44,088 nt of DNA from assembly GCA_026991135.1 (NCBI GenBank), contig JALXCD010000129.1:1-44088 (forward strand). Direction: 5' to 3'. Shown piece by piece: positions 31,728 to 44,088 of the stretch. This DNA is from Deltaproteobacteria bacterium. Lineage in GTDB: Bacteria > Desulfobacterota > Dissulfuribacteria > Dissulfuribacterales > QOAL01. The notes beneath the pieces were generated by a model, which worked only from the letters and a program-made list of their open reading frames with translations, was not told the DNA's origin and did not search any database. Both the position numbers and the translations under genes were made by a program. Position 1 is the first letter of the stretch; each line of letters opens with the position of its first letter.

Positions 31728-32087
31728 AAATTCTCCCCACTATTAACTATGGTCAAAAAACCAAAGAAAAATCTAAAGATGAGGGCTACTTTACTGCCCG
31801 TCTTGTCATCTGTCAATGAAGGGATTGGGGCTAAAAAACCTTTTTCTGCTAAACCTTTCAAAAATTCCAGGCCATATAACTAACGACCGTCATGCCTTGT
31901 CTTTAAATATCTACCTAACCCGCCTGATAATTTACAGCCACTTAATTTTTGAAGAAAATTTAAACTGTACAGACAGATGTTGTCCATTGACTTGTTTAAT
32001 ATGGAAAAGTCCACTACTCTCAATAACAGGAGCTTTTGCAGGTTGAATATCCAATTTTTTAGGGCCCTTTCAAAAATGGAGGAGACC

Positions 32088-33512
32088 ATGAGTTCTTTTT
32101 TTCGTTTTACCATCAAACAAAAGATCCTGATATTCAACATGATGATTTTGTGCTTTTTCATCCTGTTATTTGGTTTTTTTTACCTGGAAATAATATCAGT
32201 TGAAAAACATCTTGAGACCATAGAACACTTCAACAAGATATTGCTGGATGCCTTGGAAATCAGGCGTTATGAAAAAGACATTCTTCTTAATATAGGTGAC
32301 GGCAATTTAGATAAACTCATGGATTATCTCCATCAGCTTAAAAAAGACATTAATTCTAGGCAGGATGATATAATTCGACTTACCAGTAAAGATGAATACA
32401 TTGATTTTTTAAATTTACTATCGAGGTATGAATCCTTTTTTAAGTATAAAAAATTTAAGAAAATAAATCCTACACTTGTAAGAAAATATGGTAAGCAACT
32501 TATTGATTATTGTAATAAAATACGAAAAAAGATTAGAACAAAAATACACGGGGAATTAAAGAATATTCTCTGGATCTGTGCTCTTATTCCTACTGTACTT
32601 GGAATAATCATGGCAGTAGCAATTCAGTTTCAGACCAAACTGGTCATTAAAAGGCTAAAACTCCTTGAAAAAGCAACAAAGGACCTTCTGGAAGATAAGT
32701 TTGTTCCTATTGAAGATGATGCCAGGATACAGGATGAGGTTTCTGATCTTATTAAGGCCTTCAACAAAATGGCCCGCGAACTAAATCATCAATATGAAGA
32801 GATGTTACAGGCAAAAAAGATGGCTGCCATTGGGACATTTTCTTCAGGGATTGCCCATGAGATAAACAACCCCCTGAACAACATTTCTCTATCAGCTGAC
32901 ATGTTATATGAAGAATATGACAACCTTTCCCCTGAAGAAGCCAAGGAGATCATAAAAGACATTCTTGAGCAGACAGAAAGGGCCAGCAAGATTGTCAGGA
33001 ATCTGCTTGATTTTTCAAGGGAAAAGGAACCGTCCATCAGGGAACTGACCCCCAGGGAAATAATTGAATCCACTGCAAAATTACTGGAAAATGAATTTAA
33101 GGTGAAAAAAATTTACTTTGGCTCCTGTGTACCCATTGATTTGCCCCACGTCCTGGGTGATCTCAATCAATTGCAGCAGGTCTTTTTAAACCTGTTTTTA
33201 AATTCCATACACGCCATGGACGAAGGCGGGATTATCCATGTAGATGCCAAAGAGGAACCCAAAGGATATGTGCGCATAGATGTTGCAGATTCCGGTAAGG
33301 GGATACCTGAATCTGAACTGGAAAAGATCTTTGACCCCTTCTATACCACAAAGGCAGTGGGCGAAGGCACAGGATTGGGGCTATCAATTGTTTATGGAAT
33401 TGTAAAAAAGCACGGTGGCCATATCGAAGTAAAGAGCAAGCTTGGGGAAGGAACGATTTTTTCTATCTTTTTACCTGTATATAAGGGTGAAAAAAAGGGA
33501 GAAAAGGCATGA
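32088..33512 (+). CDS. Membrane sensor histidine kinase (NtrB/ZraS-like, HAMP)
   Basis: Two TMs, HAMP region, GIAHEINNPLNNISLSADML H-box, GKGIPESELEKIFDPFYTTKAVGEGTGLGLS. Likely start ATG 32088 after GGAGGA. Confidence 0.92.
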   Translation: MSSFFRFTIKQKILIFNMMILCFFILLFGFFYLEIISVEKHLETIEHFNKILLDALEIRRYEKDILLNIGDGNLDKLMDYLHQLKKDINSRQDDIIRLTSKDEYIDFLNLLSRYESFFKYKKFKKINPTLVRKYGKQLIDYCNKIRKKIRTKIHGELKNILWICALIPTVLGIIMAVAIQFQTKLVIKRLKLLEKATKDLLEDKFVPIEDDARIQDEVSDLIKAFNKMARELNHQYEEMLQAKKMAAIGTFSSGIAHEINNPLNNISLSADMLYEEYDNLSPEEAKEIIKDILEQTERASKIVRNLLDFSREKEPSIRELTPREIIESTAKLLENEFKVKKIYFGSCVPIDLPHVLGDLNQLQQVFLNLFLNSIHAMDEGGIIHVDAKEEPKGYVRIDVADSGKGIPESELEKIFDPFYTTKAVGEGTGLGLSIVYGIVKKHGGHIEVKSKLGEGTIFSIFLPVYKGEKKGEKA

Positions 33513-34855
33513 GATTGGCTGTCATCGATGATGAGCAAACTGCTCGTCAAATGATGAAACGATTTTTAGAAAAAGAGGGGTTTCAAGTTGAAACATTTTC
33601 TCTGGCATCCACTTTTTTTAAAAGATTGAAGGAGACTGGTTTTGAAATAGTCTTTATTGATCTCAAGCTTCCTGATATGGATGGCCTTGAAGTTTTAAAG
33701 AATGTAAAACACCTTAGCCCAGATACTGAAGCCATTATAATCACAGGCTATGCCAGCATAGACACAGCAGTGGAAGCCACCAAAATGGGGGCCTTTCACT
33801 ATCTTTCCAAACCTTTGAAACGATATGACATAGTATTAATGGCAAATCGGGCACGGGAAAGGGTACGCCTTAAAAAGGAAAACAAGACACTTAGAATGGC
33901 CAATACGGGTGGGGAATTGATAGAAGGCTTTGTTGGCGCCGGCCCTGCCATGCAGGAAATTTTTTCACTGATAAAAAAAGTGGCCCTGGTTAATTGTAAT
34001 GTTCTTCTGCAGGCTGAGACCGGTACTGGAAAACAGATGGTGGCCAAGGCAATTCATCGCCTGAGTCCCAGACGGGGTATGCCTTTTGTATATTTCAACT
34101 GTGCAAGCTTCACAGAAGAGCTTATTAGCAGTGAGCTTTTTGGTTATGAAAAGGGTGCCTTTACAGGAGCAACCACTTCAAAAAAAGGGCTCTTTGAAAC
34201 CGCCAACGGAGGCACTGTGTTTCTTGATGAAATAGGGGAGATGCCCATGTCAATGCAGGTAAAACTCCTGCATGTGTTACAGGAAAGACAAATCCTGCGT
34301 GTAGGTGGCACCAAACCCATAGATTTAGATGTCCGAATTATTGCAGCAACAAATAGAGATTTGAAATCAGCAATTAAAAATGGTTCTTTCCGTGAAGACC
34401 TCTATTACAGGTTGAATGTGGTTAATATTCAACTTCCTAGACTTGCCGAAAGAAAAGAAGATATTCCGCTCTTGGTCACCTACTTCATTAAAAAATATTC
34501 ATCAAGATTTAAAAAGAAGGTTAAAAACATCTCTCCAGACGCCCTTAACATCTTGATGAAATATGATTTTCCAGGAAATGTCAGGGAGCTTGAAAACATC
34601 ATCCAAAGGGCAGTTGCCCTGACTGAAGAACTTTTTATTGAAAAAAAACACCTGCCACCAGAACTTCTTGAAATTGAAAATGAAGGTCTTGTGGATGACG
34701 ATTCATTGCTGTTGCCTCTAGAAGAGGTCGAAAAACTCCATATTTTAAAAGTCCTTAAAAAAACAGGATTCAACAAAAAGAAGGCCAGTAAAATTCTAAA
34801 TATCCCCAGGACCACACTCTGGCGTAGAATGAAAAAATTTGGAATCGACCATTAA
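33509..34855 (+). CDS. Sigma54-dependent NtrC-family response regulator
   Basis: Receiver, AAA+ with GAFTGA (YEKGAFTGATTSKKGLFETANGGTVFLDEIGEMPMSMQ) and C-terminal Fis-type HTH. 4-nt overlap with the kinase. Confidence 0.96.
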   Translation: MRLAVIDDEQTARQMMKRFLEKEGFQVETFSLASTFFKRLKETGFEIVFIDLKLPDMDGLEVLKNVKHLSPDTEAIIITGYASIDTAVEATKMGAFHYLSKPLKRYDIVLMANRARERVRLKKENKTLRMANTGGELIEGFVGAGPAMQEIFSLIKKVALVNCNVLLQAETGTGKQMVAKAIHRLSPRRGMPFVYFNCASFTEELISSELFGYEKGAFTGATTSKKGLFETANGGTVFLDEIGEMPMSMQVKLLHVLQERQILRVGGTKPIDLDVRIIAATNRDLKSAIKNGSFREDLYYRLNVVNIQLPRLAERKEDIPLLVTYFIKKYSSRFKKKVKNISPDALNILMKYDFPGNVRELENIIQRAVALTEELFIEKKHLPPELLEIENEGLVDDDSLLLPLEEVEKLHILKVLKKTGFNKKKASKILNIPRTTLWRRMKKFGIDH

Positions 34856-35064: not shown

Positions 35065-35081
35065 TTGGCATTTCTATTGCA
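35065..35081 (+). promoter_or_regulatory. Sigma54 (-24/-12) promoter TTGGCATTTCTATTGCA
   Basis: GG (35067-35068) and GC (35079-35080) separated by 10 nt; matches TTGGCA-N6-TTGCA. Lies about 100 bp upstream of the TSUP gene start. Confidence 0.8.
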
Positions 35082-35182: not shown

Positions 35183-36109
35183 ATGTTTCACATGTATCTT
35201 CCCATAGCCGGGAATAGCGTAAACATTTTACTCATTTTTGGTCTAGGTGGTTTCGTAGGGTTGCTCTCAGGAATTTTTGGAGTTGGTGGTGGATTTTTAA
35301 TGACTCCCCTTTTAATCATGTTTGGAATTCCGCCAACTGTAGCAGCAGCTTCTGATTCAAATCAGATTGTTGGTGCATCTACTTCAGGAACCCTGGCCCA
35401 CTGGCGCCTTGGAAATGTGGATTTCAAAATGGGCATCCTTCTTCTAATTGGAGGCATTATTGGAGGGACATTTGGTGTTCAAATCATAAAGATCCTGCGT
35501 GCCATGGGTAATGCAGATTTCTTAATCAAAATAACCTATGTCATCATGCTAGGCGGCGTTGGAAGTTATATGTTCGTAGATAGCTTGAAAGGACTAAGAG
35601 GAAGCTCAGAAGCCACCTCCAAAAAAACTGGTGGCAAAGAGTCAACCTATGCAAAGATGTTAAAAAGCCTGCCGTTTCAAACCAGATTTGAAAAATCAGG
35701 CATTGAGATATCGCTGCTTCTTCCATTGATTTTCGGTGCATTTGTGGGCATTCTTGCCGCCATCATGGGTGTTGGCGGTGGATTTATCATGGTGCCCGTC
35801 ATGGTTTATTTGTTGAGAATGCCCATGCATGTAGTGGTAGGAACCAGCTTGTTTCAGATACTTTTCACCTGTGTTGATGTTACCATTATGCAGGCATATG
35901 CCAACCACACAGTGGATTTTGTTTTGGCCCTCTTACTCCTTCTTGGCTCCACAATAGGGGCACAGATAGGAACAAGCATTAATAAACGCCTTAAAGGTGA
36001 CCAGATAAAGATCTTGTTGGCTAGCCTTGTGCTTCTGGTCTGTGTCAAGATGCTCTATGGATTGCTAGTTCCCCCAGAGATTATGGTTGCACTGAAAGGA
36101 GGACACTAA
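35183..36109 (+). CDS. TauE/SafE (TSUP) family membrane permease
   Basis: GLGGFVGLLSGIFGVGGGFLMTPLLIMFGIPPTVAAASDSNQIV and second repeat FGAFVGILAAIMGVGGGFIMVPVMVYLLRMPMHVVVGTSLFQI; AGGAGG RBS. Confidence 0.93.
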   Translation: MFHMYLPIAGNSVNILLIFGLGGFVGLLSGIFGVGGGFLMTPLLIMFGIPPTVAAASDSNQIVGASTSGTLAHWRLGNVDFKMGILLLIGGIIGGTFGVQIIKILRAMGNADFLIKITYVIMLGGVGSYMFVDSLKGLRGSSEATSKKTGGKESTYAKMLKSLPFQTRFEKSGIEISLLLPLIFGAFVGILAAIMGVGGGFIMVPVMVYLLRMPMHVVVGTSLFQILFTCVDVTIMQAYANHTVDFVLALLLLLGSTIGAQIGTSINKRLKGDQIKILLASLVLLVCVKMLYGLLVPPEIMVALKGGH

Positions 36110-36111
36110 AA

Positions 36112-36900
36112 ATGAAAGTATCAAGCAAATGTATTAAGAAGCACTTTGTCTTCTTAGTATTTCTTTCCCTAAGCGTTTTTTTAATAAGTAACTGGGCTTT
36201 CGCATCTCAAGAAAACCTGAAATTAGAGTTGAATCCAAGTCATATAAATATTGGTACATTTTATAATGGCACTAAAGTCATAGCAAAGGGAAAGATACCA
36301 GCCGGCACCGAGGTAGTATTAAGAATTAGCGGTCATTACACTGAACTTCATCTAAAAAAGAAAGGAAAGATAGCAGGGCTTCTGTGGATGAATATCGGCG
36401 ATGTGACAGTAGGAAATGTGCCCGAGGTTTTCATGGTGGTTTGTTCTCAAAATATGAAGGACAGGATAGACGACCCAGAGTTAAACCTTGGTTATAAATA
36501 TCTGGAAAAGATGATGACCATAGAGCCAGAGGGTGAAGACAAAGGTTTTATCTTTAAAGAATTTGTAAAATTGCAGGAAAAATCCGGTACCTATGGAATT
36601 TTCAGTGGCAATGTGAAATATACAGGTGAAAGTGACGGCCTCAAAACATTTGAGGCAACAATTCCTGTTCCGCCAAAAATGAAACAGGGAGAATATAAGG
36701 TAGAGGCATTTGCAGTAAGGGGCAAAGAAATAATTAAATCCTCGGCCCAGGAGCTAAATTTGAAACAGGTTGGATTCCCGGCCCTTGTATCAAAACTTGC
36801 CTTTGGCTATTCTCTAATATACGGTATTGGTGCTGTAATTATAGCAATCTTTGCCGGTCTCCTGATGGGACTACTCTTTAAAGGGGGAGGTTCCCATTAA
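36112..36900 (+). CDS. TIGR02186-like exported/membrane-anchored protein
   Basis: Signal peptide, ELNPSHINIGTFYNGTKVIAKGKIPAGTEVVLRISG, C-terminal TM; directly follows the TSUP gene. Confidence 0.7.
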   Translation: MKVSSKCIKKHFVFLVFLSLSVFLISNWAFASQENLKLELNPSHINIGTFYNGTKVIAKGKIPAGTEVVLRISGHYTELHLKKKGKIAGLLWMNIGDVTVGNVPEVFMVVCSQNMKDRIDDPELNLGYKYLEKMMTIEPEGEDKGFIFKEFVKLQEKSGTYGIFSGNVKYTGESDGLKTFEATIPVPPKMKQGEYKVEAFAVRGKEIIKSSAQELNLKQVGFPALVSKLAFGYSLIYGIGAVIIAIFAGLLMGLLFKGGGSH

Positions 36901-36925: not shown

Positions 36926-39514
36926 ATGGTGAATCTCAAACATATATTTAAAAAGATACTGGGAAAGGGCGGCACCGATGAAGGCCGCCCTTTTTCTTAT
37001 TTATTCCAGGTTTTCCAGCAGATTTTGACGTTGAACAACAAGATCCTGGATAAGATAGCAGAAGCCAATGAGAAGCTTGGAGGTGAATATGTCTTTGACA
37101 TAAGGTTTATTGAACAGTTTGTGGAAAGCATATCAAAGGATGTCCAACAGTTGATCTTTTCAATGAATGAAATGGTGCCTGGGCGATATGAAGGCCTTTT
37201 TGAGGCATACAAGGCAATAGAGCTCGATATCCAGGCTATAATGGCTGGCCAATATATTGGAGCAAAAACCCATGTATTGCATTTCGATGATGTTGAAAAG
37301 GGAGATGAAGATTCAATTGGTCCTAAAAATGCCTCGTTATGTCTTCTAAAAAAAGAACTCTCTTTAAATATCCCGGAAGGGTTTGCCATAACCTTTTATG
37401 CATATAAGGATTTTTTGTCTCAGAATGGACTTGAAGAAAAGATTCATGAGATAATGAATGAATGGGAAAAAGGACGGTATAGTACTAAAGAAGCAAGTCG
37501 AATGATTCAATCTGAAATACTTTCATCACCCATCCCTTCAAATTTGAAACACTCCATAAGCGACGCCTTGGCAATTCTCAGAAAAAAGATAGGTAAACAT
37601 TCACTTTTGGCTGTGCGCAGCAGTGCATGGGGAGAAGACAGTGAGCATTCTTTTGCAGGCCTCTATGACAGTGTCGTGGGCGTGAATGATAATGGCATAT
37701 ATGATGCATATAAGAAGGTAATAGCAAGTACCTTTCATTCAAAAGTCATGGAATATAGACGACAGATTGGGTTCAAAGAGGATGAAATACTCATGGCCGT
37801 GGGATGCGAACAGTTAATAGAACCTGAAGTTAGCGGAATAATTTATACGCTCAATCCTAATGAACCCAGTTGTGAGAACATGATCATCAACTCCACATGG
37901 GGATTAGGGGGGATACTGGTATCTGGTAAGACCACTGGAGATATGTTTTTCATCAACAGAGAAAGCAGGGAAATTGTGGGACTTGAAATAGCCTGGAAAG
38001 AGAAAAAAAAGGTGATAAAAAGGGATGGATCTTTCGAATATGTGGAGGTTGAAGACAACCGCAAAGAGATCCCATCCCTTTCCAAAGAACAAATTAAAAG
38101 GCTTGCCAAAACCGCAGTAACAATTGAACGATTCTTTAAAAAGCCCCAGGATATAGAATTTGCAATTGACAAGTCTGGTGAAATCATAATCTTACAGTCC
38201 AGGCCCCTTAAGATCAGGGAAAAGATTAAAACAAGCCAGCTGGATATCACTCACCTTGATAAAAGATATCAAATTCTCATAAAAAACTCAGGGCACACAG
38301 CCCAAGAAGGTGTCGGCATTGGCCCAGTTTATATATGCGCTGGCGATCACGTTTTAGATGACTTTCCAACTGGTGCCATAGCAGTTGCAAAATACGCTTC
38401 TCCAAGGCTTGCAAGGATTGTCCCAAGGGCTTCTGGCATAATTACTGAGATAGGTTCAGTTGCCGGTCACCTGGCCACCATATGCAGGGAATACGGCCTT
38501 CCTGCCGTATTCAATGTAAAAAATGCAATTGAAATCTTGGAGGATCAGGGCCAGATTACCCTGGATGCCACAGAAAAAACCGTTTATAAGGGCAAGGTAA
38601 AAGAGTTATTTTATTATACCTTGTCACAGGAGCCCATAGAAGAGTCCTATGAATACCGTCTTCTTAGACGGATCTTAAGAAAGATCGAACCACTTAACCT
38701 GGTGGATCCAAATTCGCCAAAGTTCAGGCCCGAAACGTGTAAAACATTTCATGATATAACCCGTTTTGTCCACGAAAAGGCGGTAGAAGCCATTATTGAT
38801 CTTCATTATGAGGGCATAGATCACTCCCAATCCATATCAGCAAGGATGAAATGGGATATTCCATTAGACCTTGTAGTCATAGACATTGGCGGTGGGCTTG
38901 ACGAAGAATCATTGAAAGTTGGAGTGGCACGCCCAGAAGATGTTCTTTCAATACCCATGCAAGGACTTATGCAAGGTTTGAGATGTCCAGGAGCATGGGA
39001 CAATGATCCTATGTCAGTGGATGTTTCAAGTTTTATGTCAAGTTTAACCCGAACTTTTTCTGCTGAACATGCTGACCCTAAAATGGTTGGCCAGAATTTA
39101 GCTGTATTAAGCAAACACTATGTCAATTTGAGTCTTAGACTTGGTTACCATTTTACAATGGTAGATAGTTATGTCTCACAAAATGTGATTGAAAACTATA
39201 TTTATTTTCGTTTTTTTGGCGGGGTCACTGATCTTAAACGAAGGTCCAGAAGGGCTAAATTGATTAGTGATATCTTAAGCTTTTATGATTTCAGGGTAGA
39301 GACCAGAGGAGATTTAGTAGTTGCTCGGCTAAAACGATTTGGGCAGGAAGACACACTTAGACGTCTTTATCTGGTTGGTATTTTAATAGGATTTACCCGT
39401 CAGCTTGATGTATTAATGGTTTCTGACGAGCACGTAAGCCAATTTGCAAAAAAAATTATCGAATTGATGGAGGGGGAAAATGGACAAAGAGAAGATAAAA
39501 ATTTTGATTCTTGA
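36926..39514 (+). CDS. PEP/pyruvate-binding-domain protein A: N-terminal helical domain, ATP-grasp, phospho-His swivel, novel C-terminal domain
   Basis: AVRSSAWGEDSEHSFAGLYDSV, DIEFAIDKSGEIIILQSRPL, ASGIITEIGSVAGHLATICREYGLPAVFNV. No PEP-utilizers TIM-barrel motifs seen in the C-terminus. Confidence 0.85.
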   Translation: MVNLKHIFKKILGKGGTDEGRPFSYLFQVFQQILTLNNKILDKIAEANEKLGGEYVFDIRFIEQFVESISKDVQQLIFSMNEMVPGRYEGLFEAYKAIELDIQAIMAGQYIGAKTHVLHFDDVEKGDEDSIGPKNASLCLLKKELSLNIPEGFAITFYAYKDFLSQNGLEEKIHEIMNEWEKGRYSTKEASRMIQSEILSSPIPSNLKHSISDALAILRKKIGKHSLLAVRSSAWGEDSEHSFAGLYDSVVGVNDNGIYDAYKKVIASTFHSKVMEYRRQIGFKEDEILMAVGCEQLIEPEVSGIIYTLNPNEPSCENMIINSTWGLGGILVSGKTTGDMFFINRESREIVGLEIAWKEKKKVIKRDGSFEYVEVEDNRKEIPSLSKEQIKRLAKTAVTIERFFKKPQDIEFAIDKSGEIIILQSRPLKIREKIKTSQLDITHLDKRYQILIKNSGHTAQEGVGIGPVYICAGDHVLDDFPTGAIAVAKYASPRLARIVPRASGIITEIGSVAGHLATICREYGLPAVFNVKNAIEILEDQGQITLDATEKTVYKGKVKELFYYTLSQEPIEESYEYRLLRRILRKIEPLNLVDPNSPKFRPETCKTFHDITRFVHEKAVEAIIDLHYEGIDHSQSISARMKWDIPLDLVVIDIGGGLDEESLKVGVARPEDVLSIPMQGLMQGLRCPGAWDNDPMSVDVSSFMSSLTRTFSAEHADPKMVGQNLAVLSKHYVNLSLRLGYHFTMVDSYVSQNVIENYIYFRFFGGVTDLKRRSRRAKLISDILSFYDFRVETRGDLVVARLKRFGQEDTLRRLYLVGILIGFTRQLDVLMVSDEHVSQFAKKIIELMEGENGQREDKNFDS

Positions 39515-39875
39515 TGACGAACCCATAGTTACCAAACGTCTAAAACCTGCCCTAGAAAAAAAGGGATATGAGGTAGAAACCTTTACCCAGAGTAGCTCTG
39601 CCCTAAAAAGAATTCAGGAAGAGAGATTTGATATAGTAATTACAGATCTTAAGATGGAAGGGCTTAGTGGAATGGAATTTCTTGAAAAGGTCAAGGAAAA
39701 GTGGCCACAAACTGAGGTCATAGTGATTACAGGTTTTGCTACCATGGAAACTGCAAAAGAATCCTTTAAAAAGGGCGTCTTTGACTTTCTGGCAAAACCA
39801 TTCAAGCTAGGAGAAATTATAGATATTGTGGCCAAGGCCGTTGATCATTTGAAGGGTAAAGAAGCTTCTAAATAA
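39480..39875 (+). CDS. Stand-alone response-regulator receiver domain
   Basis: ILILDDEPIVTKRLKPALEKKGYEVETF...DIVITDLKMEGLSGMEFL...VIVITGFATMETAKES...FLAKPF; 35-nt overlap with upstream CDS. Confidence 0.94.
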   Translation: MDKEKIKILILDDEPIVTKRLKPALEKKGYEVETFTQSSSALKRIQEERFDIVITDLKMEGLSGMEFLEKVKEKWPQTEVIVITGFATMETAKESFKKGVFDFLAKPFKLGEIIDIVAKAVDHLKGKEASK

Positions 39876-39898
39876 TTTCTTTTGATGGGAGACGACTA

Positions 39899-40726
39899 AT
39901 GGCAAGAGCGTTACTCTATTTAGACGAAAACTTGGCCTCAAGCATTGCCCTTAGATATATAGATTACTTAAGCACTATGATACAACTGACTCCATTCATA
40001 ATTCATGTTGTCGTACCTGAAGAGAAGGAACAGGCAGGCACAGGATGGGTACGCCGCACCTGGGAAAGTGGTATGATTGAATCGGGAAAGGCCACCATTT
40101 CAAGGCTTCTTAAGACAGAAAAAGTTAAATGTGCATTTGGCGGCACCCCGAAGATAAAGATAGGCAACAAAGATGATGAGATACTGGAAGAGCTAAGGAT
40201 CACTTCATACGATTTCTTTGCTGAAGGACACCTACCTACTTCTCGAAGTCAGGACTTTCACGACTTATTAGATTCAGAGCTCTATATAAAAGCCCCGTGT
40301 TCAATAATGTGCATTAAAAATCTGTCGGTGTCAAAGACAGTGGGTATCCTCCTTGGAAATGGTGTCGAGCCGGAAACAGTGGTGTCTGAATTGAAAAAAA
40401 TATGGGACAACTCGGTAATGGATATAGATTTGATTTATTACACGTTTAAAGATTCAGACAATCTAGAATTTCTTGAAAGATCACATGCAAGCAATTTACT
40501 TAATGAAACTGAAGAGTTACTTAAAAAAGGAGAGCTTCCTTGCTCAAACATCCATGTTATCGCTGGAACACCGGAAGCGGCTGGTGATTTTCTTATAAAT
40601 TATGCATTCATAGCCTCTAGTTTCCCACCTAAAAAGTCACTGGTAGCTGAAGTCCTAGCCTATACACCAAATTCAGTATTTTTATGCAAAGGTAAAAAGA
40701 GTAGAAAAAAGGGGACGGAGGCTTAA
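39899..40726 (+). CDS. Divergent universal-stress-protein-like protein
   Basis: MARALLYLDENLASSIALRYIDYL..., ITSYDFFAEGHLPTSRSQDFHDLLDSELYIKAPCSIMCIKNL has USP-like organisation; adjacent to another USP-like gene. Confidence 0.55.
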   Translation: MARALLYLDENLASSIALRYIDYLSTMIQLTPFIIHVVVPEEKEQAGTGWVRRTWESGMIESGKATISRLLKTEKVKCAFGGTPKIKIGNKDDEILEELRITSYDFFAEGHLPTSRSQDFHDLLDSELYIKAPCSIMCIKNLSVSKTVGILLGNGVEPETVVSELKKIWDNSVMDIDLIYYTFKDSDNLEFLERSHASNLLNETEELLKKGELPCSNIHVIAGTPEAAGDFLINYAFIASSFPPKKSLVAEVLAYTPNSVFLCKGKKSRKKGTEA

Positions 40727-40727
40727 T

Positions 40728-41573
40728 ATGCGTATATTAGGAGCACTAGACAGCAATATATATAGCTATAGAGCACTTGAAGACCTGGCAAATCTTTGTG
40801 CGAACACCTGGGCAGATGTAACGCTATTGATGCTGGCAGAAGAAAAACCAAAGCAAATAAAAAATGAAGACGTCCTTATTTCACTGGCCCAAAAATTCGT
40901 GGAAAAGACCGGTGGTGATCAAGGGCCGTATCACCTGCCGGATAATGTAAATTTTAGATTACAAAGTGATGGTTCCAAGACCTTTGTCTCACCTGGAAAA
41001 AAAGAGCTTATTTTAAGGATTCGAACAGGAGATTATGCCAAAGAAATACTGGAAGAGGCCCGGGAAATTGATAGCGATCTCATTGTCTTGGGATGCTCAA
41101 AAGGAATGGAGTGTGAGTGGGAAGGTATTCTGGGTCTTCCAAAGCAGATTGCTAGAGACGCAACATGTTCTGTTTTGGTGATTAAAGATACCACAAGGCC
41201 CAGTCAAATTATCTCTTTTTTAGATCAAAGCAATGTCAGTCAGGAATCGTTAGAACTCATAAATCAAATGGTGACAATCCACCATGCAGGGCTAAAAATT
41301 GTAGGACTAATGGGAGAAAAAGGCATAGTAGAAAAGGAAGATGTTCAGCGTAAGATGCTTGATATTATAAGTTATTATAATGAAAAGGGCATACATGCAT
41401 GGATTACATTTATCGAAAAGTCCTCAATAGAAGATTATGTTGCCAATGCCACACACGAAGGGATGGTAGCCCTTTGGATTGGCAAAAAATCATTTTTCTC
41501 AAGGATATTTTCAAGGGATCTTTTGGGAAAACTTATTGAATATGCAAGATCATCAATTTTAATACTTAGATAG
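40728..41573 (+). CDS. Universal-stress-protein-like protein (two USP-like halves)
   Basis: MRILGALDSNIYSYRALEDLANLC...SDLIVLGCSKGMECEWEGILGLPKQIARDATCSVLVIKD. Confidence 0.7.
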   Translation: MRILGALDSNIYSYRALEDLANLCANTWADVTLLMLAEEKPKQIKNEDVLISLAQKFVEKTGGDQGPYHLPDNVNFRLQSDGSKTFVSPGKKELILRIRTGDYAKEILEEAREIDSDLIVLGCSKGMECEWEGILGLPKQIARDATCSVLVIKDTTRPSQIISFLDQSNVSQESLELINQMVTIHHAGLKIVGLMGEKGIVEKEDVQRKMLDIISYYNEKGIHAWITFIEKSSIEDYVANATHEGMVALWIGKKSFFSRIFSRDLLGKLIEYARSSILILR

Positions 41574-41577
41574 TAAA

Positions 41578-44088
41578 ATGCTTAAATACTCCACTCATAT
41601 TGATGGCCCTGGCCGGATATTCAGACATTTTAGAAAGATATTAGACCTAAACAATCGTATCCTCGAAGAAATATCAGAAGCAGAACGGATCTTAAGTGGA
41701 AGCTATCTTTTTGACAGTGCCTATCTAAATTCATTTGTTACCAAAATCACAGAAGATGCACGAGAGGTTATCTATAATCTAAATGTCCTTTCTGAAGGTA
41801 AGTTTTTAATCCTTTACGACCGGCTAGATGAGATCAAACAAACGCTTGATGACATAATAGCTGGAGGTGTTGGGCCCTATGGCGAGGCCATAACCATTGA
41901 TTACCATCAAGTAAAAAGGGATTTTGACGAGATTGTAGGGGCTAAGAATGCAAATCTTGGAGAACTCTTAAACAGTTTCCAGGTCAAGATTCCTGATGGT
42001 TTTGCCGTAACCGTTAAGGCCTACAGGTTGTTCCTAAATTCAAATGATATCATAGACAAGGTTAAAACAGTCTATAAAAAATACCATGACAAAAAAGAGG
42101 ACCTTAAAAAAGAGTTAAAGACCATATTTAATGAAGCAAAGGTTCCAGAAGAGGTCAAGGACTCCATAAAAGGGGCCATAAAAAGGCTATATAAACGGAT
42201 AGGTAAAAAGGTGCCACTTGTGGTTAGAAGTAGTGCTGTGGGTGAAGATGCCGAACGGAGCTTTGCAGGCCAGTTCACATCTATTTTGAATGTATCCCCA
42301 GAAGATGTCTTTTCGGCATACAAACAGGTAATCATGGGGCGTTTTTTGCCAGAAGGCATGGATTACATAGGAGATGATGTGGACTTTGACCAAGTACCCA
42401 TGTCAGTGGGGATACAGGAGATGATTCATGCGACTGTTTCAGGCGTTGCATATTCAGTGGACCCAGTGGGTCGCTTTAAGGAAGGTTTGGTAATTTCTGC
42501 TGTTGAAGGTCTAGGAGAAGTTCTGGTGTCTGGTGAATCGACAGGAGAACAATATGTCCTTGACAGAAATTATCCATTTGACCCCATCTCATCCAAAATT
42601 GTACCAAAGGATATCTCAGCCACTCTTCCGCATGGGGATAGCCCTTTAGATATTACTGAAAGCGGATTAAAAAGAGGCTCTTCTTTGTTGAATATGTCAG
42701 ATCTTAAGGCCATAGCAGAGATTTCCATGTTATGCGAAAAGGCCTTTGGAACACCGAGAGATATAGAATGGGCCTTAGATGAAAATGGCGACTTAGTTAT
42801 ACTTCAAAATAGACAATTATCTGTAAGCCCAGGCCAATCCCAGGAGTCATTGAAAAATATAGATGAACTCCTTAGCCGCTTTCCTGTCCTTATGGAGGGT
42901 ATCGGGCAAACAGCCCAATCAGGGGTTGCCTCTGGCCGGGTGGTACACGTAAATCCAGATGATGAACCAGATCGGCTTCCAATAGGTGCAATAGCTGTGG
43001 CTCATTACGCCCACCCTGGTTTAAGCCGAATACTCAGACGGGCTGGAGCCATTATCACAGATATTGGAAGCGCTACAGGGCATCTGGCAACAATTGCTAG
43101 AGAATACAGGGTGCCTGCTATTTTTGGCACTGAAATGGCCACGAGCATCCTTAAGGAAGGAATGGAAGTCACTGTAGATGCCGATGATCGAAAGGTTTAC
43201 AAAGGAATAATAAAAGAGCTAGTGGAAATAGAATCAAGGCGTCAGTGGGAGTATCTGGAAGAGCCTGAATTCAAGACACTTAGGCGGATCTTAAGCCATA
43301 TTGCGCCCCTTTATCTCACAGACCCATCATCTGCACAATTTAGCCCTGAAAATTGTAAAACCATCCATGATATCATTCACTTCAGCCACGAAAAGGCAGT
43401 GGAAGCCTTGATCCATCAATTTTCGTCTAAAAAAGGCATCTCTAAAGAAAAAATCTATGAACTGGATATCTCCATTCCAATAAGGATAAAGGTTGTGGAT
43501 ATTGGAGGAGGAGTTAGCCCGTCGGATAGCGATGTGAACAAGGTCACTACAGATAGTATCTTGAGCCGGCCTTTTTCGGCCCTTCTTCGTGGGCTTTTGA
43601 GAAAAGATGCCTGGGATAGGGAACCAGTTCCTTTTGGACTGGGCGATCTTTTTTCAAGTATGATGCGCCCTATGAGTACCCTTACAAATCCTCCAGAATA
43701 TGCAGGCGACAATCTAGCCATTATAGCCGAAGATTACATGAACCTCAGTCTTCTTCTTGGTTACCACTTTAATGTAATTGACTCTTATGTTTCTGGTGAC
43801 CCGGATAACAATCACATCTATTTCCGATTTGCAGGGGGATTTGCCCAAGAATCCAAGAGAAAGAAAAGAGCAGAATTGATTAGGTGGATACTTGAGGCAT
43901 TGGGATTTAAGGCTGATATTAATGGAGACTTAGTCATTGGGAAATTAAAGGGGGTTGATGACGCCCATCTCCTGTCGCTTTTGGAGCAGGTGGGAGCACT
44001 TATTGCGTTTACCAGGCAGTTGGATGTAAGAATGGCCGATGAAGAGTCTGTTGAAAGATTCTTTAAACGCTTTTTTGCCATGTACAGT
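41578..44088 (+). CDS. PEP/pyruvate-binding-domain protein B, paralogue of protein A; truncated by right window edge
   Basis: Manual translation MLKYSTHIDGPGRIFRHFRKILDLNNRILEEISEAERIL...DEIVGAKNANLGELL...PLVVRSSAVGEDAERSFAGQFTSI...AIITDIGSATGHLATIAREYRVPAIFG...; open to 44088 and therefore absent from the ORF track. Confidence 0.88.
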   Translation, partial: MLKYSTHIDGPGRIFRHFRKILDLNNRILEEISEAERILSGSYLFDSAYLNSFVTKITEDAREVIYNLNVLSEGKFLILYDRLDEIKQTLDDIIAGGVGPYGEAITIDYHQVKRDFDEIVGAKNANLGELLNSFQVKIPDGFAVTVKAYRLFLNSNDIIDKVKTVYKKYHDKKEDLKKELKTIFNEAKVPEEVKDSIKGAIKRLYKRIGKKVPLVVRSSAVGEDAERSFAGQFTSILNVSPEDVFSAYKQVIMGRFLPEGMDYIGDDVDFDQVPMSVGIQEMIHATVSGVAYSVDPVGRFKEGLVISAVEGLGEVLVSGESTGEQYVLDRNYPFDPISSKIVPKDISATLPHGDSPLDITESGLKRGSSLLNMSDLKAIAEISMLCEKAFGTPRDIEWALDENGDLVILQNRQLSVSPGQSQESLKNIDELLSRFPVLMEGIGQTAQSGVASGRVVHVNPDDEPDRLPIGAIAVAHYAHPGLSRILRRAGAIITDIGSATGHLATIAREYRVPAIFGTEMATSILKEGMEVTVDADDRKVYKGIIKELVEIESRRQWEYLEEPEFKTLRRILSHIAPLYLTDPSSAQFSPENCKTIHDIIHFSHEKAVEALIHQFSSKKGISKEKIYELDISIPIRIKVVDIGGGVSPSDSDVNKVTTDSILSRPFSALLRGLLRKDAWDREPVPFGLGDLFSSMMRPMSTLTNPPEYAGDNLAIIAEDYMNLSLLLGYHFNVIDSYVSGDPDNNHIYFRFAGGFAQESKRKKRAELIRWILEALGFKADINGDLVIGKLKGVDDAHLLSLLEQVGALIAFTRQLDVRMADEESVERFFKRFFAMYS

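Follow-up and report, generated by a model that had tools for sequence, protein, structure and literature searches.

On the basis of profile comparisons and a predicted structure, the C-terminal domain shared by proteins A and B is a domain without a known relative and not a TIM barrel. Both proteins are encoded in the window, which is the whole contig analyzed in the present study (44088 bases). We propose that they are reversible dikinase-type phosphotransferases with a regulatory role and an acceptor other than pyruvate. This reading as a whole draws on sequence features and on analogy with characterized enzymes, and we assign it a probability slightly below one half (approximately 0.47).

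Domain organization of proteins A and B

Protein A (862 aa) is encoded at 36926..39514 and protein B, a second, B-type member of the same family, at 41578..44088, as indicated by the ORF list, Pfam, and an alignment of A with B. Both genes, and all other features described herein, are on the forward strand. The gene for B is cut by the contig end and gives 837 aa without a stop codon. Since its alignment reaches residue 847 of the 862 in A, little of B is missing. The two proteins share 37% identity across 828 residues (E 3e-178). Pfam recognized PPDK_N (PF01326; 1.2e-77 in A and 4.7e-66 in B) and PEP-utilizers (PF00391; 4e-16 and 5e-17, respectively) in both. The Arg segment of the ATP-grasp domain reads VRSSAWGED in A and VRSSAVGED in B, and the swivel motif reads GSVAGHLATICREY and GSATGHLATIAREY, respectively. 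The C-terminal regions share the motifs RRIL..PL.L.DP.S..F.PE.CKT.HDI..F.HEKAVEA, DIGGG, Y(V/M)NLSL.LGYHF, and FTRQLDV. The original prediction had assigned the Arg segment, a swivel with a candidate phospho-His, and this shared C-terminal motif set to both proteins; the ORFs and Pfam matches agreed with it, and each motif it quoted was present in the ORFs concerned.

Protein A begins with a helical N-terminal domain (residues 23-108; 36992..37249), which is conserved in the family according to the family alignment, a module HMM, and the helices of the model, and which has no Pfam match. The ATP-grasp domain (PPDK_N, residues 117-430; 37274..38215) follows, supported by Pfam and by residue conservation (K134, R231, E237, D238, E411, Q424, and R426); its key residues agree column by column with canonical PEP synthase. 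The swivelling phospho-His domain (residues 450-556; 38273..38593) was delimited with PF00391 and an alignment to solved PEP synthases, in which the candidate phospho-His, H515 (codon 38468..38470), aligned with the catalytic phospho-His. The corresponding candidate in B is H502 (codon 43081..43083), based on its alignment to H515. The new C-terminal domain of A (residues 561-850; 38606..39475) contains Cx3HDx5HE, D653, YHF, GG, Rx2R, GD, and RxxD motifs and was defined by conservation, profiles, the AlphaFold model, and Foldseek. Its counterpart in B (43240..44088) was located by alignment with A and by the family search.

The claim that the PEP-binding TIM barrel is missing was also borne out. 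Pfam searches extended to E<=1 did not reveal PF02896 (PEP-utilizers_C) in A or B. As a positive control, the PEP synthase encoded on contig C65 of the same genome matched at 1.4e-63, and the gene for this protein and that for enzyme I were the only matches in the whole genome. In hhalign, a profile built from 88 C-terminal domain sequences aligned with TIM-barrel profiles at a probability of 0.1-0.2%, and the positive control, the PEP synthase barrel against that of enzyme I, reached 98.6%. The full-length family profile matched canonical PEP synthase at 100%, restricted to residues 116-565. AlphaFold predicted the C terminus of A as an alpha/beta domain with an antiparallel sheet and no barrel (pLDDT 85.1, pTM 0.74; strand order taken from the secondary-structure string), and the model of full-length A had a pLDDT of 85.2. 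Foldseek searches with the C-terminal domain returned zero matches at E<=1e-3 in the PDB and in the BFVD viral models. With full-length A, the top match was the PEP synthase 2ols, over 468 columns only, which is the length of the ATP-grasp and swivel domains. The Pfam, hhalign, and AlphaFold results, together with the PF02896 control, ruled out a divergent TIM barrel; hhalign, AlphaFold, and Foldseek were thus in line with the original prediction, for which a divergent PEP-utilizers_C barrel was the critical counter-case.

The C-terminal domain had no Pfam, NCBIfam, PHROG, or significant PDB-sequence match, and the PADLOC and PHROGs searches gave nothing useful. Arginine kinases recurred among its weak Foldseek matches (best E 0.044; one with a probability of 0.82 and a TM of 0.17), all below significance. 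The arginine-kinase and RecJ matches were weak, with a TM of about 0.2, and did not enter our interpretation; we regard the arginine-kinase matches as no more than a lead. The phosphagen kinase family PF00217 was found in none of the sampled or control genomes.

Family, operon, and phosphatase partners

The C-terminal domain was present in 78 of the 198 sampled genomes of the phylum (36-39%), with up to 11 copies per genome, and the genome of the window encodes four family members. GTDB genomes contained at least 551 relatives of this domain, including those in Nitrospirae, Zixibacteria, Latescibacterota, and Abyssobacteria. This occurrence is far beyond chance. Many of the family loci are metagenome-assembled; the GTDB loci are skewed to the A-type, and the data on the C- and D-types come partly from loci of a single phylum. 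Our survey of the open-access literature (subscription journals were outside its scope) on the neighborhood, TIGR02186, and multi-copy PEP synthases revealed no description of the family. We concluded that the family is large and apparently undescribed, and that it is built on a known phosphotransfer chassis.

Nearly all members uncut by contig ends consist of the helical N-terminal, ATP-grasp, swivel, and C-terminal domains. Among the full-length members, H609, D610, and H616 were conserved in 190 of 190, H742, G765, G766, R776, and D828 in 189, and C605 and the swivel H515 in 187. Three variants were noted. Proteins of about 400-500 aa with the N- and C-terminal domains alone, and neither the kinase nor the His, were encoded at four independent loci, including one in a closed genome. 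Three of these four proteins, as read from their sequences, had lost H609 or H616, and two of the four adjoined the dual-specificity phosphatase. In one subgroup, members of ~1,060 aa carry a C-terminal extension of ~200 residues, for which the sole Pfam hint was a sub-threshold match to a 3-keto-disaccharide hydrolase (E 0.006). The third variant (1,259 aa; L204:5013-8789) has a dual-specificity phosphatase fused at its C terminus.

Two further observations concern these sequences. The conserved extension of the ~1,060-aa members (L202, L203, L205, L206, and L208-L211) contains the motifs DGSKW, GGLAFGIKNVGNYFVFRINALEDN, and GLWTKADSVT and resembles a carbohydrate-binding jelly roll, below the Pfam cut-offs. 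The member at L055:8309-10939 has an in-frame tandem duplication of NLRLGYHFNMIVAYIG within the C-terminal domain, which was absent from the other sequences displayed and may be an assembly artefact or a real slip.

Judged from gene order and promoter-like sequences, A is encoded in a conserved sigma-54/NtrC operon. The conserved neighborhood begins with a membrane histidine kinase (HAMP, HisKA, and HATPase_c by Pfam; 31977..33512) and an NtrC-type response regulator (receiver, sigma-54 activator, and HTH_8 by Pfam; 33509..34855). A TauE/SafE (TSUP) membrane transporter (35183..36109; PF01925, 4.9e-51) and a TIGR02186/Alph_Pro_TM transmembrane protein (36112..36900; PF09608, 5.5e-41) precede A. 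Downstream are a single-domain response regulator overlapping the end of A (39480..39875; PF00072, 8e-31), a USP-like protein (39899..40726), which clusters with a double-USP family, and a universal stress protein (40728..41573; PF00582, 7.8e-09). Based on mechanical ORF calls around 107 family genes, the transporter gene was two positions upstream in 47 cases, the transmembrane protein gene immediately upstream in 51, and the receiver gene immediately downstream in 45. The order of histidine kinase, NtrC, (USP), TauE, TIGR02186, A, receiver, USP, and USP was conserved across Desulfobacterota, and the same parts occurred in a different order in Nitrospirae (L105, L109, and L111).

A sigma-54 (-24/-12) promoter-like site with one mismatch, TGGCATTTCTATTGCA (35066..35081), lies 118 bp before the transporter gene. 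Of 55 homologous operons, 26 have a site scoring >=10, whereas 0.65% would be expected from shuffled sequences. The 44 kb window contained 32 two-mismatch sites, against 22.6 expected, and a single site of this type is worth little alone; the weight of the site before TauE comes from its position and from the other operons.

Several features of the neighborhoods are recorded here. The USP-like gene at 39899-40726 is kept in the operon across many genomes and is not recognized by any Pfam model. In one large subfamily (L143, L147, L178, and others), the position of TIGR02186, between the TauE and dikinase genes, is taken by a membrane protein of ~237 aa without a Pfam family above the cut-off. 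Family genes in several genomes (L097:7431-8249, L091, and L043) have a recurrent neighbor, which encodes a Cytidylate_kin2 protein with a BON domain. Opposite-strand ORFs inside GC-rich genes (e.g., neighbor clusters 9, 10, 12, 13, and 16) look like spurious shadow ORFs and were disregarded.

Other branches of the family are paired with phosphatases. C-type paralogues adjoin a PPP-type phosphatase at 16 loci, including contig C93 of the genome of the window, and D-type paralogues are followed by one particular family of dual-specificity phosphatases, a pair also found on contig C109 of this genome. In a search of 297 genomes for this dual-specificity phosphatase, 25 of the 27 strong matches adjoined a family gene; these 25 include one that is fused to a family member and one beside a kinase-less member (L229). 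Since a dikinase and a phosphatase are kept side by side, and were once fused, they may act in opposite directions on one substrate. The A/B pair in the window has no adjacent phosphatase, which counts against the reading that we prefer.

The ATP-grasp domain has decayed in some paralogues. Its residues are gone in one B-type branch of 11 proteins, all of which retain the swivel His (11/11); of four examined with Pfam, two had no PPDK_N match, one was sub-threshold, and one was weakened. Mean pairwise identity among ten of these proteins was 33% in the kinase module, 58% in the swivel, and 52% in the C-terminal domain, and the values for intact B proteins were 47, 64, and 56%, respectively. 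Nearly all of the decayed proteins adjoin an intact family member. The loss is confined to this branch and to one further pair of proteins; the B protein of the window itself has an intact ATP-grasp domain, as does A. As a separate observation, the ATP-grasp residues are missing from the first ORFs of L141 and L144, and Arg replaces the phospho-His; these two proteins retain the C-terminal domain and are next to an intact paralogue. HpeHI requires two components, of which the one bearing the His can transfer phosphate alone (PMC12167813). This precedent makes trans-phosphorylation of kinase-dead B-type paralogues plausible, and by analogy, their His is probably phosphorylated by the intact neighbor.

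Proposed mechanism and the nature of the acceptor

In PPDK, PEP synthase, and rifampin phosphotransferase (RPH), the beta-phosphate of ATP is transferred to the swivel His and then to a second site (PMC4844700). We infer a similar relay and direction of flow in the present family. The ATP-grasp domain would transfer the beta-phosphate of ATP to the swivel His (H515 in A), giving AMP and Pi, and the swivel would carry the phosphate to the new C-terminal domain, which would bind the acceptor and in which C605, H609, D610, H616, H742, R776, and D828 may form a second active site. Since the operons are regulated and phosphatases are beside several branches, the family probably phosphorylates something other than pyruvate, perhaps in a signalling circuit. 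The regulators, universal stress proteins, and phosphatases favor a regulatory target; therefore, the acceptor is most likely a protein or another regulatory target in a reversible circuit, from which, in other paralogues, the PPP-type or dual-specificity phosphatase would remove the phosphate. A more far-reaching proposal, which we regard as tentative at best, is that the family is a new class of bacterial signalling kinases derived from PEP synthase. Phosphate would pass from ATP through the phospho-His to an acceptor of the new domain, dedicated PPP or dual-specificity phosphatases would reverse the reaction, two-component and sigma-54 regulators would provide the wiring, and kinase-dead paralogues, phosphorylated in trans, would serve as relay partners.

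An unlikely, but serious, alternative is a small-molecule dikinase, in which the C-terminal domain binds and phosphorylates a metabolite or a transported anion, perhaps supplied via TauE, and the phosphatases recycle or detoxify the product. TauE and the transmembrane protein are directly upstream in most A-type operons. These two proteins favor a small ligand and point to small-anion transport as much as to signalling, which counts against a regulatory target. Small molecules are also possible substrates of PPP and dual-specificity phosphatases, and this weakens the regulatory reading further. To our knowledge, all characterized swivel dikinases with odd acceptor domains have small-molecule or glucan substrates, which we count in favor of this alternative. 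Examples of such enzymes acting on small molecules are RPH and HpeHI (PMC4844700, PMC12167813). However, the recurrent neighbors of the family are regulators and universal stress proteins, and not catabolic or biosynthetic enzymes. Moreover, up to 11 paralogues in a genome, several with their own histidine kinase and response regulator, are odd for a single metabolic step.

A polysaccharide-directed dikinase appears improbable. Plant glucan water dikinase is opposed by a dual-specificity glucan phosphatase, much as dikinases of the present family adjoin a dual-specificity phosphatase, and the extension of the ~1,060-aa members has its weak hydrolase-like match. However, this match is below the Pfam cut-off and limited to one subgroup, Pfam does not identify the phosphatase as laforin-like, and no glycogen or polysaccharide gene family recurs in the neighborhoods.

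We see a similarly small chance that the C-terminal domain is merely sensory or a scaffold, with the phospho-His donating in trans to a domain of another protein. The kinase-less proteins indicate some function of the C-terminal domain that needs no phospho-His in the same protein, which counts against the phosphotransfer reading, and the phosphatase beside two of them also fits a scaffold. The loss of H609 or H616 in three of the four may be read in either direction: it is in line with a scaffold, but the invariance of H609, D610, and H616 in all full-length proteins looks catalytic, and their loss in kinase-less forms agrees with this. It is very improbable that A and B are ordinary PEP synthases in which the barrel has diverged extremely; the ATP-grasp and swivel domains are clearly PEP-synthase-like, but the C terminus has neither profile similarity to the barrel nor a PF02896 match, its model is not a barrel, and a canonical PEP synthase is encoded elsewhere in the same genome.

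Comparison with known systems

PEP synthase (pyruvate, water dikinase; PRK06464/TIGR01418) has the same order of ATP-grasp and swivelling phospho-His domains as A and B. In contrast, A and B lack the PEP-binding TIM barrel and possess an extra helical N-terminal domain. They scored 298.2 and 266.6 bits against the PEP synthase NCBIfam equivalog (cut-off 739.75), and 39.9 and 25 bits against pyruvate phosphate dikinase TIGR01828 (cut-off 843), to which the missing barrel also applies. Family proteins are at risk of annotation as PEP synthase, although they match these models well below the cut-offs.

The ATP-grasp and phospho-His domains of RPH serve a non-pyruvate acceptor domain without a structural homologue, and its domain order is ATP-grasp, RIF-binding, and a C-terminal His (PMC4844700). 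The original prediction drew an analogy with this enzyme. The analogy holds for the mechanism, in which ATP-grasp and phospho-His domains serve a different acceptor domain, but not for membership: the His domain is central in A and B, ahead of the C-terminal domain, the score against the RPH model was 196 (cut-off 999), and Foldseek with the C-terminal domain alone placed no RPH structure in its 50 best matches and none at E<=1e-3.

The two-component dikinases HpeHI, CreHI, and phenylphosphate synthase PpsAB require two proteins for phosphotransfer from ATP, one of which carries the His (PMC12167813), and are a precedent for the kinase-dead B paralogues. However, these enzymes have phenolic substrates and are encoded in catabolic operons, whereas the present family is accompanied by regulators, universal stress proteins, and phosphatases and has a different C-terminal domain. 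A and B also each carry their own intact ATP-grasp domain, unlike HpeHI and PpsAB, in which it is a separate polypeptide. The domain order and acceptor of plant glucan water dikinase differ from those of A and B, which have no carbohydrate context.

Bacterial two-component/sigma-54 operons with universal stress proteins have the same wiring (histidine kinase, NtrC, receiver, and USP). The operon of A adds a dikinase-type phosphotransferase family, and we found no description of this family in operons of this type. More than one-third of the genomes sampled from the phylum encode the C-terminal domain, often in multiple copies, and the domain has no Pfam, NCBIfam, or PDB relative. Should the family prove to be a dikinase that serves a new acceptor, it would represent an extra branch of the swivel-phosphotransferases, a group with few known substrates. 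The pairing with phosphatases, including a natural fusion, and the paralogues with a decayed ATP-grasp domain make the question of a shared substrate directly testable.
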